Assembly (NCBI GenBank): GCA_035268685.1
Contig: DATFKK010000183.1
Location: forward strand, 1 to 33,815
Direction of reading: 5' to 3'
Length of the DNA: 33,815 bases
From: Candidatus Krumholzibacteriia bacterium
GTDB lineage: Bacteria; Krumholzibacteriota; Krumholzibacteriia; JAJRXK01
Position numbers and translations under genes: made by a program. How positions within the stretch are numbered: the first letter of the stretch is position 1; each line of letters begins with the position of its first letter. The notes under the pieces are model-generated. The model did no database searches. It saw only the letters and a program-made list of their open reading frames with translations, and was not told where the DNA came from. This document shows, piece by piece, positions 1,094-7,236 of the stretch.

Positions 1094-2556
1094 TGCGCCG
1101 GACGACCTTCTGGTTCGACGCCGCCACGTGCTCGGGCTGCAAGGCCTGCCAGGTGGCGTGCAAGGATCGCAACGGACTCGAGGTCGGCCGTCTGTGGCGC
1201 CGGGTGTCCGAGGTCTCCGGCGGTGGCTGGACCCGCGACGGCGGGGCCTGGCGACAGGACGTCTTCGCCTACCATCTGTCGATCTCCTGCAATCACTGCG
1301 AGAAGCCGATCTGCCTCGAGGGGTGTCCCGCAGGGGCGATCGTGCGACGCGACGACGGGATCGTGTTGATCGATCCCGAGCACTGCCTGGGCTGTGGCTA
1401 CTGCAGCTGGGTCTGCCCCTACAGCGCACCACAGTACAGCGGCACGCTCGGCACCATGAGCAAGTGCACCTTCTGCGTGGAGGACCTCGAGGAAGGCCGC
1501 GACCCCGCGTGTGTGGAGGCCTGCCCCGTGCGGGCCCTCGACGCCGGCGAGCCCGAGGATCTGACCGCGCGGCACGGAGCTCCCGACATGGCGGTCGGTG
1601 CTGCGCCGCTCCCACCGGTGGGGCTGACGGAGCCGGCCCTGCACCTTGCACCTCATGCGGCGAGTGACCGTTCGGGCGAGCCGGACACCGTGCTGGCCCC
1701 GAGCCCCGCCCGGGGTCTGCGCGAATGGTCGCTGGTGGCCTTCACCCTGCTGTCGCAGATGGCGGCGGGCATCGCTCTGGTGGCCGGCGTACTGCGGGCA
1801 GCGCTGGCCGGGGAGTCGACGAGCGACCTCGCGTTCGATCCCGCCGCCGTCGACCGCGTGGCCATGCCGGCGATCGCGCTGTTCCTGCTCGCCGCCCTGC
1901 TCACGTCGGCGGCGCATCTGGGCCGGCCCGTCCGGGCGTGGCGTGCGTTGCGGAACCTGCGCGCATCGTGGCTGAGCCGCGAGGTCCTGCTCGCCGTCGT
2001 CCTGCTGGTGACGGCAGGGGCGGCGACGATCACCGGCCACGGCATCCTCGCCTGGCTGACCGTCCCCGCCGCGGCCCTGTACCTGTTCGGCATGACCCGC
2101 GTCTACACCGTGCGCACCGTTCCGGTGTGGAACACGGCGATGACACCGGTGAACTTCACGGCAAGTGCCCTCGTGACCGGAGGGTTGGCCCTGCACGCCC
2201 TCTTGTGGTCTCGCGCCCCGGCCGCGTCCCTGCCGTCGTCGGCCGCCGTCACGCTGGCGCTGGGACTGGTGGCCCTACTGATCGTCGTATGGGTCGGTCT
2301 CCGCTTCGGTCTGGGACACCGCATGCGCCTTCGCCGCCCCTACGAAGACTCCACACGGGTGGGGCCCACACCCGCCGGCGCCGGCCTGGCGGCCGCGGCG
2401 ACGGTGACGCTGATCCTCGCGTCGCTTGGTGCCGTGGTCGCCTGGCCGAGCGCCGCACTGCTCTCCGCAGCGTGGGGTGCGTGGGCACTCGCCGTGGCGT
2501 CGGAGATCAGTGAACGACAGGCCTACTACGGAGCCTACCGGCGCGTCGGGGTGTGA
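1093..2556 (+). CDS. DmsB-DmsC fusion: four-cluster ferredoxin joined to membrane anchor
   Basis: A 487-residue protein carries electrons from the membrane quinol pool to the DmsA-type subunit. Residues 1-~165 are a DmsB-like ferredoxin with four cysteine groups: C13/16/19/23, C66/69/74/78, C98/101/104/108 and C125/128/140/144, the pattern for four 4Fe-4S clusters. A linker of about 45 residues leads to a DmsC/YnfH-like integral membrane domain (about 210-487) with roughly eight hydrophobic helices, starting near REWSLVAFTLLSQMAAG. In E. coli these are two proteins of about 205 and 287 residues; the fused length equals their sum. The start ATG overlaps the dmsA stop, so the two genes form one transcription unit. 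The 3' end overlaps the convergent PAP2 gene by 50 bp. No TorD/DmsD-type chaperone gene is visible downstream. Confidence 0.9.
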   Translation: MRRTTFWFDAATCSGCKACQVACKDRNGLEVGRLWRRVSEVSGGGWTRDGGAWRQDVFAYHLSISCNHCEKPICLEGCPAGAIVRRDDGIVLIDPEHCLGCGYCSWVCPYSAPQYSGTLGTMSKCTFCVEDLEEGRDPACVEACPVRALDAGEPEDLTARHGAPDMAVGAAPLPPVGLTEPALHLAPHAASDRSGEPDTVLAPSPARGLREWSLVAFTLLSQMAAGIALVAGVLRAALAGESTSDLAFDPAAVDRVAMPAIALFLLAALLTSAAHLGRPVRAWRALRNLRASWLSREVLLAVVLLVTAGAATITGHGILAWLTVPAAALYLFGMTRVYTVRTVPVWNTAMTPVNFTASALVTGGLALHALLWSRAPAASLPSSAAVTLALGLVALLIVVWVGLRFGLGHRMRLRRPYEDSTRVGPTPAGAGLAAAATVTLILASLGAVVAWPSAALLSAAWGAWALAVASEISERQAYYGAYRRVGV

Positions 2557-3424
2557 GGCGGCGCACCTGCAACCGCCGGTGCAACCACGAACCCAGCACG
2601 AAGGTCACGCCACACCACAGGATGCCGGCCAGCGAATCCACCAGGTAGTGGAAACCACCGTACACCGTCCCCACCGTGAGCAGGGTCACGAGAACGGCCA
2701 GGATCCATCGTGTGATCCGGGCCGTCCTCCACGCACACGCCAGCACGCAGCACGCCACGGCCACGTGGCTCGACGGAAACGCCGTTCCGATCGACGAACC
2801 GCCGCTGACCACGGCATTCACCAGGGGCGGGAAGAGCGAGCCCGGCGCCGGCGGATCGAGCGGGCCGAAGTAGTGGTACGGACCCGTGACCGGCACGAGC
2901 ACGAACCAGATCTGGCACGACCCGAAGGTCAACGCGAGCACGGTCAGGTACCATTCCAGTCCGGCCCACTCCCGCCGCAGCACCAGCACCACGAACAGGA
3001 GAGCGGGCAGCGCGTAGTAGGAGCCGTAGCCCAGATGCAGCAGCTCCGACACCCAGGTCCACGACCACGCCCGGGCGAAGACCTGCGAGGTGTCCACGCC
3101 GAACAGGGTCCGCTCGAGCGAGACGAGGTACGGGTCGAAGTAGCGCTCGCCCCAGATCACGTCGTTGAGGACGCCGATCTCGAGGTAGAAGAGAGGGCCG
3201 AGCACGAGCGGGAAGATGCGGCGGACGAAGGCGATGGCGACCGGTGCCCTCGAGCTCGTCCGGGCCATCAGGACGATCAGACCGACACCCACGAGATGGA
3301 GGGACAGCAGAAGGAACGGGTGCGGCAGGGTCCGAGCGCCGAGCAGCACCAGGATCGCCGTCACCACCAGGTAGACACACAGGACCCACTCGACGGGACG
3401 GAGGCCGGGTCCGAAGTTCCCCAT
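2507..3424 (-). CDS. PAP2_3/Aur1-like integral membrane enzyme, last gene of the sphingolipid cluster
   Basis: A 305-residue polytopic membrane protein of the PAP2 superfamily. The second PAP2 motif is AFPSSHVAV (215-223, His220) and the third is VYGGFHYLVDSLAG, with His259 and Asp263. The arginine found in third motifs of ordinary PAP2 phosphatases (SRxxxGxHxxxD) is absent; a Thr occupies that place. This fits the PAP2_3 branch that includes eukaryotic inositol-phosphoceramide synthase Aur1. The gene is co-directional with, and 17 bp after, the reductase gene; an in-frame GTG at 3445 overlaps that gene's stop (GTGA) and is an alternative start giving 312 residues. By context it may attach a phospho-headgroup to ceramide, or dephosphorylate a lipid intermediate. 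Family is confident, reaction is inference. Its 3' end overlaps the dmsB-dmsC fusion gene tail to tail. Confidence 0.8.
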   Translation of the reverse strand: MGNFGPGLRPVEWVLCVYLVVTAILVLLGARTLPHPFLLLSLHLVGVGLIVLMARTSSRAPVAIAFVRRIFPLVLGPLFYLEIGVLNDVIWGERYFDPYLVSLERTLFGVDTSQVFARAWSWTWVSELLHLGYGSYYALPALLFVVLVLRREWAGLEWYLTVLALTFGSCQIWFVLVPVTGPYHYFGPLDPPAPGSLFPPLVNAVVSGGSSIGTAFPSSHVAVACCVLACAWRTARITRWILAVLVTLLTVGTVYGGFHYLVDSLAGILWCGVTFVLGSWLHRRLQVRRLTPRRAGRLRSRPVVH

Positions 3425-3441
3425 CGCACGATCGATCCCGC

Positions 3442-4440
3442 TCACGGCAACCACCCGTGTTCGCGGTACCAGCGCACCGTCTCGTGCAGACCCTCGCGCA
3501 ACGTGACCGCCGGGCGGAATCCCAGCTCCCGCGCGATTCGCGCCGGTGAGCAGGTCCAGGCCTCGGCCTGCAGGTCGGCGAGTCGATCGGCCGGGAGGGG
3601 ACCCGGCCGTCGCAAGAGCTGGCCGATCATCGACGACATGCCGGCGGCCACCGGGAGCAACCCGGTCGAGACGGGGATCCGCCGCGGTCGACGCCGCAGC
3701 GTGTCGGCCATGACGTCGACGATCTCGTCCCAGTCGGTCGGCGCGGGGTCGGCCACGAACCAGGTACGTCCTTCGGCCCGGTGATCCCCGACGACGTCGA
3801 CGAGCACCCGCGCAAGATCGCGGACGTGCACCACCGACAGCGCCTGCGGCACGGAACCGATGCGCGGCACCCACCCCCGCTCCACCATGCGGGCCAGCCG
3901 CAGGAAGTCCCGGTCTCGCGGGCCGAAGACCGCGGGTGGTCGCAGGATCGACCACGCGAGGCGGTCCGACGCCGCCTCGCGCAGCACTCTCTCCGCCCGC
4001 AGCTTGCTCCGACCGTAGGCCGAGATCGGGCGCTCGGACTGCATTTCGTCACGCACCCGCTCCCGCGTGCTGGGCCCGGCCGCGGCCAGACTGCTGACCA
4101 GGACGAAGTGCCGGGGTGCTCCCGCCGGGCGAGCACAGGCCTCGGCCAGATCCCGCGTGGTCCGGACGTTCGCTCGCTCGTAGTCGTCGTCGGTGGCCGC
4201 GCGCGTGGCTCCCGCCACGTGGATGACGGCGCGTGCACTGTCGACCAACGGCTCGACCGCACCGCGCTCCTCGTAGTCCACGCGGCACACCTCGACACGA
4301 TCGACCGGCAGCGCGTCGATCCGACTGCTCCGCCGGACCGCGACCCGCACCGGCAGGTCACGGCGCAGCAGTTCGTCGACGACGTGCGAGCCCACGAAGC
4401 CGTTCGCTCCCGTCACCAACACCGGAGCGGTCGCGTCCAT
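3442..4440 (-). CDS. NAD-dependent epimerase/dehydratase-family reductase, candidate ceramide reductase (CerR-like)
   Basis: A 332-residue extended short-chain dehydrogenase. The Rossmann glycine motif is TGANGFVG (G11, G14, G17), the catalytic pair is Tyr142/Lys146 in YGRSK, and a VSS serine strand lies at 115-117, all intact. In Caulobacter an enzyme of this superfamily (CerR) reduces the 3-oxo group after N-acylation of 3-ketosphinganine. Here the gene lies in a tight operon after serine palmitoyltransferase and a GNAT acyltransferase, so the same step is the best guess. It starts 3 bp after the acyltransferase stop, with GGAGG 8 bp before the ATG inside the upstream gene, so translation is probably coupled. 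Nucleotide-sugar epimerase or dihydroflavonol-reductase-like activity remains possible on sequence alone. Confidence 0.85.
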   Translation of the reverse strand: MDATAPVLVTGANGFVGSHVVDELLRRDLPVRVAVRRSSRIDALPVDRVEVCRVDYEERGAVEPLVDSARAVIHVAGATRAATDDDYERANVRTTRDLAEACARPAGAPRHFVLVSSLAAAGPSTRERVRDEMQSERPISAYGRSKLRAERVLREAASDRLAWSILRPPAVFGPRDRDFLRLARMVERGWVPRIGSVPQALSVVHVRDLARVLVDVVGDHRAEGRTWFVADPAPTDWDEIVDVMADTLRRRPRRIPVSTGLLPVAAGMSSMIGQLLRRPGPLPADRLADLQAEAWTCSPARIARELGFRPAVTLREGLHETVRWYREHGWLP

Positions 4441-4443
4441 GTC

Positions 4444-5574
4444 TCAGCCTCCGACCGACATCTCGTAGAGGCGATAGGTCTTGTAGGGAAGAGCTCCCAT
4501 GGCGCCCTCGATGGGTTTGCGGATGCCGTGGTTGTCCTCGAGCACCCACGAGAGCTCCGCCCCGCGCAGTCCGACCTTCGCCGCATGATCGTACAGGTCG
4601 GCGTACAGGACCGCATCGAGCCCCCGTCCCCGGTAGTCGTCGACCACACCCAGGACGAGCACGCGCGCGGCGTCGATCCGACGGGAATGCCAGAGGATCT
4701 TCAGCAGGCCGAAGGGGAAGAGCCGACCGTTGGCGTGGCGCAGAGCCTGGTTCATGTCGGGCAGAGCGAGGGCGAAGGCCACCGTCCGGTCGCCGTGTTC
4801 TGCGATCCGGACGAGTCCGGGATCGAGGACCTGCCGCAGCGACGCGGCCATGTGGTCGATCTCGGAGTCGGTCATCGGGACGAAGCCCCAGTTCCGCTCC
4901 CACGCCGCGTTGTACACCGACTTGAAGCGATCGACCTCGGCGTCGAAGTCCTTCTTCCGGAAAGCACGGAAGGTGATCTCGGGATTCCGTGCCCGGGCGA
5001 TACGAGCCGCACGTTGCAGGCGCTCGGGTGCACCCTCCGGAGGAGCGTCGAGCCAGTACGCGAGCAGGTCCTTGGCCTTGCCAAGGCCGGCTTCCTCCAG
5101 GACACGGTCGTAGTAGGGTGGAGAGTGTGGCATGAGGACGGCGGGCGGGCTGTCGAAGCCCTCGACCAGTACACCACACTCGTCGTTGGTCGAGGGATTG
5201 ACCGGGCCGCGTAGCGTGCGCAGTCCCCAGTCGCGACAACGCACACGCGCCGCCTCGACCAACGCCGAGGCCACGTTCGGATCGTCGATCGACTCGAAGT
5301 AGCCGAAGAAGCCACAGCCGTCGTTCCAGGCGCGCTCGTGGTTGTGGTTACGAATGGCCGCAATGCGTCCTACGACCTCGCCATCGCTGCGGGCGAGCAT
5401 GGGCTCGATCTGGCCGTGCTCGAGGAAGGGATTGTGGGCGGGATCGAAGACCCGGACGGCGTCGCGGATCAAGGGCGGTACCCAGACAGGATCGTCGGCG
5501 TAGATCTTCCACGGCAGGCGCACGAAGCGCTCGAGTTCGGCACGCCCACGCGCCGGACGGACCTCGACGTTCAC
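4444..5574 (-). CDS. GNAT-fold N-acyltransferase, candidate bacterial ceramide synthase (bCerS-like)
   Basis: A 376-residue protein, about twice the length of a simple acetyltransferase, whose C-terminal half shows a GNAT-like core (VARVLVLGVVDDYRGRGLD-like strand/helix near residue 310, where RGRG would contact the acyl carrier). The N-terminal half has conserved features seen in large uncharacterised GNAT proteins of Gram-negative bacteria: WKIYADDPVWVPPL, a GFFGYFE stretch, and GPVNPSTNDECGVLVEGFD. In Caulobacter a GNAT-fold protein, bCerS, acylates 3-ketosphinganine to 3-oxo-ceramide. Its place between serine palmitoyltransferase and the reductase supports that role here (inference). The start is GTG, preceded by a purine-rich AGAGGGGG at a good distance, 37 bp after the spt stop. 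No acyl carrier protein or acyl-ACP synthetase is visible alongside. Confidence 0.75.
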   Translation of the reverse strand: MNVEVRPARGRAELERFVRLPWKIYADDPVWVPPLIRDAVRVFDPAHNPFLEHGQIEPMLARSDGEVVGRIAAIRNHNHERAWNDGCGFFGYFESIDDPNVASALVEAARVRCRDWGLRTLRGPVNPSTNDECGVLVEGFDSPPAVLMPHSPPYYDRVLEEAGLGKAKDLLAYWLDAPPEGAPERLQRAARIARARNPEITFRAFRKKDFDAEVDRFKSVYNAAWERNWGFVPMTDSEIDHMAASLRQVLDPGLVRIAEHGDRTVAFALALPDMNQALRHANGRLFPFGLLKILWHSRRIDAARVLVLGVVDDYRGRGLDAVLYADLYDHAAKVGLRGAELSWVLEDNHGIRKPIEGAMGALPYKTYRLYEMSVGG

Positions 5575-5611
5575 CTCGGCGCCCCCTCTCCACGCGGCAC
5601 GGGCGGTCGCC

Positions 5612-6844
5612 CTACCCGTCGATCATCCCGAATTCGCGCCCCACGGTGCGGAAGGCCGACAGCACCCGCTCGAGGTGCTCCTCGGTGTGGGTCGCCATGT
5701 ACGACGTGCGGATCAGGCCCCCGCCCTCGGGCACCGCCGGCGGTACCACCGGATTGGTGAACACGCCCTCGGCCAACAGTCGCTTCCAGAACATGAAGGT
5801 CCGGTCGCTGTCCCCGATCAGCACGGGGACCACGGGCGTGATCGAGCGTCCGGTGTCGAATCCCATGGCCCGTAGCTGTGCGTTCACGTAGTCGGCGTGC
5901 GTGCGAACACGGACCCGCCGCTCGGGCTCTTCGCGCATCAGCTGAAGGCACTTCAACACGGTGGCGATCGCGTAGGGCGGCATGCTCGCGCTGAACATGA
6001 GGCTACGCGCATGGTGCTTGACGTAATGGAGCACGTCCTCGTCACCGGCCACGAAACCGCCGATCGAGGAAAAGGCCTTGGAGAAGGTCCCGATCAGGAG
6101 ATCGACGTCGTCGACCACACCGAGCTCTTCGCTCGCTCCCACACCCGACTCGCCGAGGACGCCGACGGCGTGGGCCTCGTCGACCGCGATCCTCGCGCCG
6201 TGCTCCTGGCAGAGCGGGACGATCTCGTCGAGAGGGGAAAGATCACCTTCCATCGAGAACACCCCGTCGACCACGACGAGCTTGCCCGCTTCGGGTGGCG
6301 TCTTGATGAGGAAGCGGCGCAGGGCCTCGACGTCGTTGTGGTCGAAGCGATGGACGTCGGCGTACGACAGACGGCAGCCGTCGATGATACTGGCGTGGTC
6401 GAGCTTGTCGGTGAAGATCACGTCGCCGCGGCCGGCCAGGCTGCTGATCACGCCGAGATTCGTCTGGAAGCCGGTCGAGAAGACCAGGGCCGCCTCCTTG
6501 TCACAGAAGTCTGCGAGCTCGCGCTCGAGCTCCTCGTGCATGGACAGCGTACCGTTCAGGAATCGGCTTCCGGTGCAGCCCGTTCCCCACGTTCGCGCGG
6601 CCGACTCGGCGGCCTCGATCACCCGCGGGTCGTGGGTGTAGCCGAGATAGTTGTTCGACCCCGCCATCACCAGTTCGTGTCCGTCGATGTGGACCGTGTT
6701 CGCCGTCGAACTCGAGATGGCCTGGAAATACGGGTACAGGCCGGCCGCGATCGCTTCACGCGCGCGCGTGAAGCGGCGTGTCTTGTCGAAGACGTCGACG
6801 GTGACTCGCTGGGGAACGGCCTCGGAGTGTGCCAGTGGCTTCAT
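5612..6844 (-). CDS. spt: Serine palmitoyltransferase (PLP-dependent alpha-oxoamine synthase)
   Basis: A 410-residue fold-type I PLP enzyme of the alpha-oxoamine synthase family. It should condense serine with a long-chain acyl thioester to 3-ketosphinganine, the first step of sphingolipid synthesis. Key residues are His150 in LDHAS (stacks on PLP), Asp222 in VDEAHAVG, and the Schiff-base Lys256 in TFSKAFSSIGG. The GTGCTGSRFLNGTLSMHEELE-like region near residue 90 and DGVFSMEGDLSPLDEI near 193 are also typical. BioF (8-amino-7-oxononanoate synthase) and KBL are the alternatives; the neighbouring lipid genes and absence of any bio gene favour SPT. The ATG at 6844 gives the normal family length; the frame stays open upstream but that part looks non-coding. 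It leads the four-gene minus-strand cluster. Confidence 0.88.
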   Translation of the reverse strand: MKPLAHSEAVPQRVTVDVFDKTRRFTRAREAIAAGLYPYFQAISSSTANTVHIDGHELVMAGSNNYLGYTHDPRVIEAAESAARTWGTGCTGSRFLNGTLSMHEELERELADFCDKEAALVFSTGFQTNLGVISSLAGRGDVIFTDKLDHASIIDGCRLSYADVHRFDHNDVEALRRFLIKTPPEAGKLVVVDGVFSMEGDLSPLDEIVPLCQEHGARIAVDEAHAVGVLGESGVGASEELGVVDDVDLLIGTFSKAFSSIGGFVAGDEDVLHYVKHHARSLMFSASMPPYAIATVLKCLQLMREEPERRVRVRTHADYVNAQLRAMGFDTGRSITPVVPVLIGDSDRTFMFWKRLLAEGVFTNPVVPPAVPEGGGLIRTSYMATHTEEHLERVLSAFRTVGREFGMIDG

Positions 6845-7236
6845 GAGCGTCGATCCAGGGGCGGTGAGTGACAGAGCCCACGATGTGCAATGCACGGGTG
6901 CGGTGTCCATGGGGGCAACCCGGAGCCCTCGCACCTGACTGCGGAATCGAAACGATGACCGGCCAGTAGAACGAATGGGCTGAGACGCCACCATCGGCAT
7001 GCACCCCAGGTCGTGATCAGGGTATCCCCCATCCGCTGACGCCCGCATTGATGCAAGGCCATCACCGGACCGCGCCACGACATGATGCACGATCATCGTT
7101 TCCGGTGATCCGGTCGAGGACGTCACCATTCCGCAACACGGTGCATCATGCCGGAATTCCTATACTGGACGGCGACCGAGATGCGAGTGCTCCGCGCCCG
7201 CGCTGCGGAGTCCATCCGCCGAGCAGGGAGGCGACC
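6845..7236. promoter_or_regulatory. 392-bp divergent control region between spt and the hybB-like gene, rich in inverted repeats
   Basis: No gene is seen. ATGCAC occurs at 6890-6895, 6999-7004 and 7085-7090, and inverted at 7141-7146. GTGCAATGCAC (6885-6895) is a palindrome around one base. CATGATGCAC (7081-7090) is exactly inverted as GTGCATCATG (7141-7150). ATCACCGGA (7061-7069) is inverted as TCCGGTGAT (7101-7109). TGATG-N6-CATCA (7049-7064) has the geometry of a CRP/FNR-family site, and ATGAT-N5-ATCAT lies at 7082-7096. TATACT at 7161-7166 is a possible -10 for the hybB-like gene, without a good -35. A weak minus-strand pair, TGGACA with CATCGT (6909 down to 6880), could serve spt. Regulators are unknown. 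Confidence 0.5.

Follow-up and report, generated by a model that had tools for sequence, protein, structure and literature searches.

A four-gene operon of a Krumholzibacteriia bacterium in which predicted ceramide synthesis genes adjoin a candidate Aur1-like headgroup enzyme

We analysed a stretch of 33,815 nucleotides (the window; contig DATFKK010000183.1, C183, of assembly GCA_035268685.1) from a Candidatus Krumholzibacteriia bacterium, whose assembly comprises 4.59 Mb in 202 contigs and is 99% complete. On its minus strand the window carries four open reading frames (ORFs) which encode, in this order, a serine palmitoyltransferase (SPT), the tandem Gcn5-related N-acetyltransferase (GNAT) bCerS, a CerR-type short-chain dehydrogenase/reductase (SDR) and a membrane protein of the PAP2_3 family (Table 1). 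Each of the four proteins belongs to the family under which it is listed; from this we infer which reactions they catalyse, which lipid is the donor and what is made. A preliminary description, made from the sequence alone, had given the strand, the order and intergenic gaps of 37, 3 and 17 bp, all of which were reproduced when the PAP2_3 gene is taken to start at the ATG. Its in-frame GTG produces a 4-bp overlap with the stop codon of the SDR gene, and since many relatives share this overlap the GTG may be the true start. The start of Spt is uncertain too, because its frame is open upstream as far as position 7129.

Table 1. Genes of the putative sphingolipid operon and their positions in the window.
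Gene product	Position	Strand	Length and start	Basis
Spt, serine palmitoyltransferase	5612..6844	-	410 aa, ATG start 6844	NCBIfam, PDB match, tree, residues
bCerS, tandem-GNAT N-acyltransferase	4444..5574	-	376 aa, GTG start	alignment, predicted fold
CerR-type extended SDR reductase (predicted 3-keto-ceramide to dihydroceramide)	3442..4440	-	332 aa	alignment, motifs
Aur1-like PAP2_3 membrane transferase, candidate headgroup enzyme	2507..3445	-	312 aa (GTG 3445) or 305 aa (ATG 3424)	Pfam, profile, fold

The top NCBIfam model of Spt is SerpalmtaseCFB, which describes CFB-type SPTs, and in a PDB search the closest solved structure is the Sphingobacterium SPT (E 4e-121). The residues H150, D222, H225, K256 and R379 align with positions of the latter protein, so that the pyridoxal phosphate (PLP)-binding lysine, the PLP-stacking histidine and the carboxylate-binding arginine are all present. 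A phylogeny of SPT against BioF and Kbl had been set beforehand as a test that could overturn the assignment. It was built from the SPTs of Sphingomonas parapaucimobilis and Sphingobacterium, 21 other cluster-encoded SPTs, Kbl and BioF of E. coli and three host paralogues. In this tree Spt falls inside the SPT clade together with the Sphingomonas and Sphingobacterium enzymes (support 95/90), and E. coli Kbl and BioF as well as the three host paralogues are excluded from it; the outgroup branches are long, which makes the exact branching unsure, but the split between SPT and Kbl/BioF is clear. The host has a second alpha-oxoamine synthase (L187:6976-9002), which scores under all curated cut-offs and whose gene overlaps an acetoacetate-decarboxylase-like gene.

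As a reference for the second and third proteins we used a locus on a plasmid of S. parapaucimobilis, where an annotated SPT-type enzyme, an acyl carrier protein, an NAD(P)H-binding protein and an N-acetyltransferase are arranged as in sphingomonad ceramide genes; its bCerS is thus known as such from synteny and annotation rather than from an assay. The GNAT of the window aligns with this bCerS over its full length (residues 1-370 of 376, 34% identity, E 8e-72) and is the sole match in its genome. A failure to align in this way had been the second result named beforehand as a refutation. Moreover, its AlphaFold model shows a tandem-GNAT fold (predicted local distance difference test (pLDDT) score 87.5). 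Relatives of bCerS were found in at least 581 genome stretches from many phyla in a GTDB-wide scan. The window protein is predicted to N-acylate 3-ketosphinganine. The identity of the window bCerS is higher to proteins of other phyla than to those of family f5 of its own class. We considered transfer of bCerS between phyla and did not adopt it, as a tree in which the class is held together was not rejected (approximately unbiased test, p 0.067).

The SDR aligns with the Sphingomonas CerR over residues 7-331 (32% identity, E 3e-30) and is the top match to it in the host genome, with 103 bits compared to 57 bits (E 2e-11) for the next SDR. It opens directly with the nucleotide-binding fold and contains a TGxxGFVG motif at residue 10 and the pair Y142xxxK146. 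In a tree of SDRs it joins those encoded in other such clusters, and most sugar-epimerase paralogues lie elsewhere; the support for this split is moderate (90/89). There are exceptions, namely one long-branch paralogue inside the cluster-SDR group, and the cluster SDRs of Streptomyces and Myxococcus, which fall outside. By alignment and tree the SDR is CerR-like, and the proposal that the first three genes match the Spt-bCerS-CerR set is borne out for each of them. Work on Caulobacter assigns CerR to the periplasm and bCerS to the cytoplasm, and puts acylation ahead of reduction (PMC11087976). The gene order of the window follows the reaction order proposed there, as the preliminary description had said. 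Spt would form 3-ketosphinganine from serine and an activated fatty acid, bCerS would N-acylate this to 3-keto-dihydroceramide and the SDR would reduce the latter to dihydroceramide. That the first three genes serve ceramide synthesis is, in our judgement, very likely.

The fourth protein contains the Pfam domain PAP2_3 (PF14378; E 8e-18). A profile built from 23 members of its family has yeast AUR1 as its top PDB match (E 6.6e-8, profile positions 67-287). A fold search with the predicted structure (pLDDT 89.6) also places Aur1 first, represented by the entries 9vj4 (E 2.1e-5) and 9ivc (4.5e-5); human SMSr comes third (E 0.045), and phosphatase structures have E values above 0.1. The template modelling (TM) scores against 9vj4 are 0.62/0.68. 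Across all 23 members H227, H266, Y267 and D270 are invariant, and the two histidines and the aspartate are spaced by 39 and 4 residues, as they are in the aligned Aur1. Catalysis by Aur1 proceeds through such a His-His-Asp triad. By sequence profile and modelled fold, the fourth protein is Aur1-like and not phosphatase-like. Its earlier designation as a possible headgroup enzyme can be sharpened to a candidate Aur1-type transferase, and Aur1-like headgroup transfer is its likely function. His266, activated by Asp270 and together with His227, would carry out the chemistry, in which phosphoinositol is moved from phosphatidylinositol (PI) to the C1 hydroxyl of ceramide, giving inositol phosphorylceramide and diacylglycerol.

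Such a reaction would draw on inositol. The host genome encodes one myo-inositol-phosphate synthase (MIPS), and two CDP-alcohol transferases were found in it (L188:2943-3545 and L187:4314-5294). Both score best with inositol-phosphate-type models and neither is closest to PgsA. The better one reaches 137 bits with PIPSynth (cut-off 170) and 35 bits with PgsA, and matches PDB entry 6h53 with E 1e-21. PI may be a main phospholipid of the host, or other CDP-alcohol transferases may have been missed. Among named genomes of other phyla, 14 of the 15 with a PAP2_3 gene beside the ceramide cluster encode MIPS, compared to 9 of the 17 without one (Fisher p 0.018), a p-value weakened by the fact that it ignores shared ancestry and that many of the genomes are Gemmatimonadota. 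Since the host encodes MIPS and an enzyme of the phosphatidylinositol phosphate (PIP) synthase type, inositol phosphorylceramide is the product we favour. On balance, the locus is probably a phosphosphingolipid operon, in which ceramide would be built first and phosphoinositol then added.

Beyond the weakness of the Fisher test, several points speak against this assignment. Spt lies under every curated SPT cut-off (499.6 compared to 640 bits for its top model, 423.8 to 500 and 339.8 to 670), although these are set for narrower subgroups; with every other model, bioF among them, the score is likewise under the cut-off, and the top scorer among all models is still an SPT model. The PAP2_3 protein reaches only 21.5 bits with the model of the BT_1522-type phosphoinositol dihydroceramide synthase (NF052609, cut-off 480). 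A PgpA-type PIP phosphatase was sought in the host genome and not found. Of 58 class relatives, 54 encode MIPS, with or without the operon; because it is nearly universal there, it does not discriminate within the class, and we rejected it as a test of the inositol model at that level.

The first three genes might make ceramide while the Aur1-like enzyme takes some other headgroup, such as phosphoethanolamine or phosphoglycerol, from a phospholipid other than PI. The donor specificity cannot be revealed by sequence, SMSr, the third fold match, is a ceramide phosphoethanolamine synthase, and the low score with the model of the Bacteroides phosphoinositol enzyme fits this as well. However, Aur1 is the clear top match in sequence and fold alike, and the two CDP-alcohol transferases both point to inositol phosphates, which makes another headgroup rather unlikely. 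A greater departure would be that the fourth protein adds no headgroup at all, but is a co-transcribed lipid phosphatase for, e.g., ceramide-1-phosphate or undecaprenyl diphosphate. Its membership in the PAP2 superfamily and weak matches of some family members to phosphatase models would agree with this. The phosphatase motifs KX6RP (C1) and SRX5HX3D (C3), however, are absent from 23 of 23 members, the phosphatase folds match far less well than Aur1, and the operon contains no kinase to supply ceramide-1-phosphate; we therefore rule against a phosphatase, which is very improbable. Use of alanine, glycine or cysteate by Spt, with a 1-deoxyceramide or a sulfonolipid as the product, would be compatible with its sub-threshold scores and with the 1-deoxyceramide-forming Spt-like enzymes discussed in PMC11334938, but hardly seems credible given that an Aur1-type enzyme requires the C1 hydroxyl that 1-deoxyceramide lacks and that Spt clusters with serine-using SPTs.

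A parallel to inositol phosphorylceramide synthesis as proposed here is found in Bacteroides, where the Aur1 homologue BT_1522 is required for phosphoinositol dihydroceramide (PMC9246714). BT_1522 of B. thetaiotaomicron is, like the window protein, an Aur1-homologous PAP2-superfamily enzyme that acts on dihydroceramide (predicted for the window protein), in an organism with MIPS and PIP synthase (PMC9246714). Its gene, however, sits with inositol-lipid genes and not with spt, whereas the reverse is true for the window, and the similarity of the two is very weak, as the model score shows. Fungal AUR1 shares the fold and the His-His-Asp spacing with the window protein but only about 19% identity. 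Moreover, fungal Aur1 operates with Kei1; we noticed no partner gene in the operon, and did not look for one elsewhere in the genome.

The Rhodobacteria Caulobacter and Sphingomonas have homologues of all three ceramide proteins, and those of S. parapaucimobilis give full-length alignments. In Rhodobacteria acpR/aasR lie beside spt; the operon of the window consists of the four ORFs only, neither acpR nor aasR adjoins spt, and the neighbours are DmsBC-like and NrfD-like genes. Rhodobacteria also have headgroup genes such as the kinase CpgB and others, in place of which the window has a single Aur1-like gene. Plasmids of the Actinomycetota Streptomyces sp. NBC_01001 and Rubrobacter radiotolerans carry SPT, GNAT and SDR genes in the same order as the window but, unlike it, no adjoining Aur1-like gene. 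Downstream of these three genes lies a condensation-domain protein gene on the Streptomyces plasmid, which was typed as mobilizable (L116:3769-8295), and a gene of the lipoteichoic acid (LTA)-synthase family, possibly a different headgroup enzyme, on the Rubrobacter plasmid (L117:4704-10296).

In class relatives with sufficient contig flank, the order SPT-GNAT-SDR-PAP2_3 is kept, with SPT about 1.6 kb further upstream in one of them (G044). Ten named loci from Gemmatimonadota and Eisenbacteria show it as well, and protein identities across all these same-order loci are roughly 30-56%. Of 80 named loci, 23 have a PAP2_3 match no more than about 6 kb from bCerS, where about 1.1 would be expected by a rough estimate from the PAP2_3 density of this genome. 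Because the order recurs in the class and in the two other phyla, we reject a chance adjacency of the four genes. The genome set of the phylum consists of one class with 80 species in eight families, and 34 of these species have bCerS, namely the majority of those in family f5 and two out of four in f1. Within the family of the host the operon is patchy, since G002 has the four genes (L120:5422-9735), with a PAP2_3 protein 41% identical to that of the window, and the same-genus G001 and same-family G003 are without bCerS. Three loci of Acidobacteriota (L036:4117-8330, L059:4123-8360 and L103:4156-7565) show the rearranged order SDR-PAP2_3-GNAT-SPT. Several Myxococcota have ceramide genes with a PAP2_3 relative a few kb away on the other strand; Myxococcus xanthus is reported to make ceramide phosphoinositol, as cited in PMC9246714.

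The host had been suspected to be non-proteobacterial, and this is confirmed by an rpoB tree, in which it groups with its class relatives as sister to Eisenbacteria (96/96). The surrounding group also contains Gemmatimonadota, Zixibacteria, Latescibacterota, Calditrichota and Bacteroidota, and corresponds to the Fibrobacteres-Chlorobi-Bacteroidetes (FCB) group. The accompanying suggestion that a sphingolipid pathway has been little reported in such a lineage was overstated, as Spt-like proteins occur in metagenome-assembled genomes of 38 phyla and sphingolipid genes are often clustered (PMC11334938), and the Streptomyces plasmid has the same three-gene order; what holds is that we found no paper on sphingolipids for this lineage. 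In view of these data and of BT_1522 (PMC9246714), a ceramide pathway in non-proteobacterial groups is not new, and the same is true of an Aur1-like enzyme in bacteria. A literature search, which did not reach the main genomic paper, returned no description of ceramide genes and an Aur1-like gene in one operon, and this joint arrangement is the less described variant. According to a published statement, bacterial cerS and the de novo genes always occupy separate operons, and a role in salvage was proposed on this ground. The window locus and many of its relatives contradict this rule; as the statement rests mainly on Rhodobacteria, the contradiction concerns its generality.

The compact operon could be moved as a whole into a laboratory host, where the ceramide pathway of bacteria can be tested along with a headgroup enzyme of the Aur1-like kind. 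Should inositol phosphorylceramide be the product, several little-studied phyla would join the fungi, the plants and some of the Bacteroidetes, with which phosphosphingolipids are usually associated. A more far-reaching idea, to which we give little credence, is that several phyla of the FCB group and its neighbourhood have a family of bacterial Aur1-like enzymes, encoded beside the ceramide genes, through which inositol phosphorylceramide becomes a substantial part of their membrane lipids. This family might be akin to the enzyme from which eukaryotic Aur1 descends.

The operon is flanked on one side by a convergent DmsA/DmsBC-like locus and on the other by a divergent NrfD-like gene. In the DmsBC-like ORF (679-2556 in the window) a DmsB-like 4Fe-4S part is fused with a DmsC-like anchor; at the 3' end this ORF shares 50 bp with the 3' end of the PAP2_3 gene on the opposite strand.

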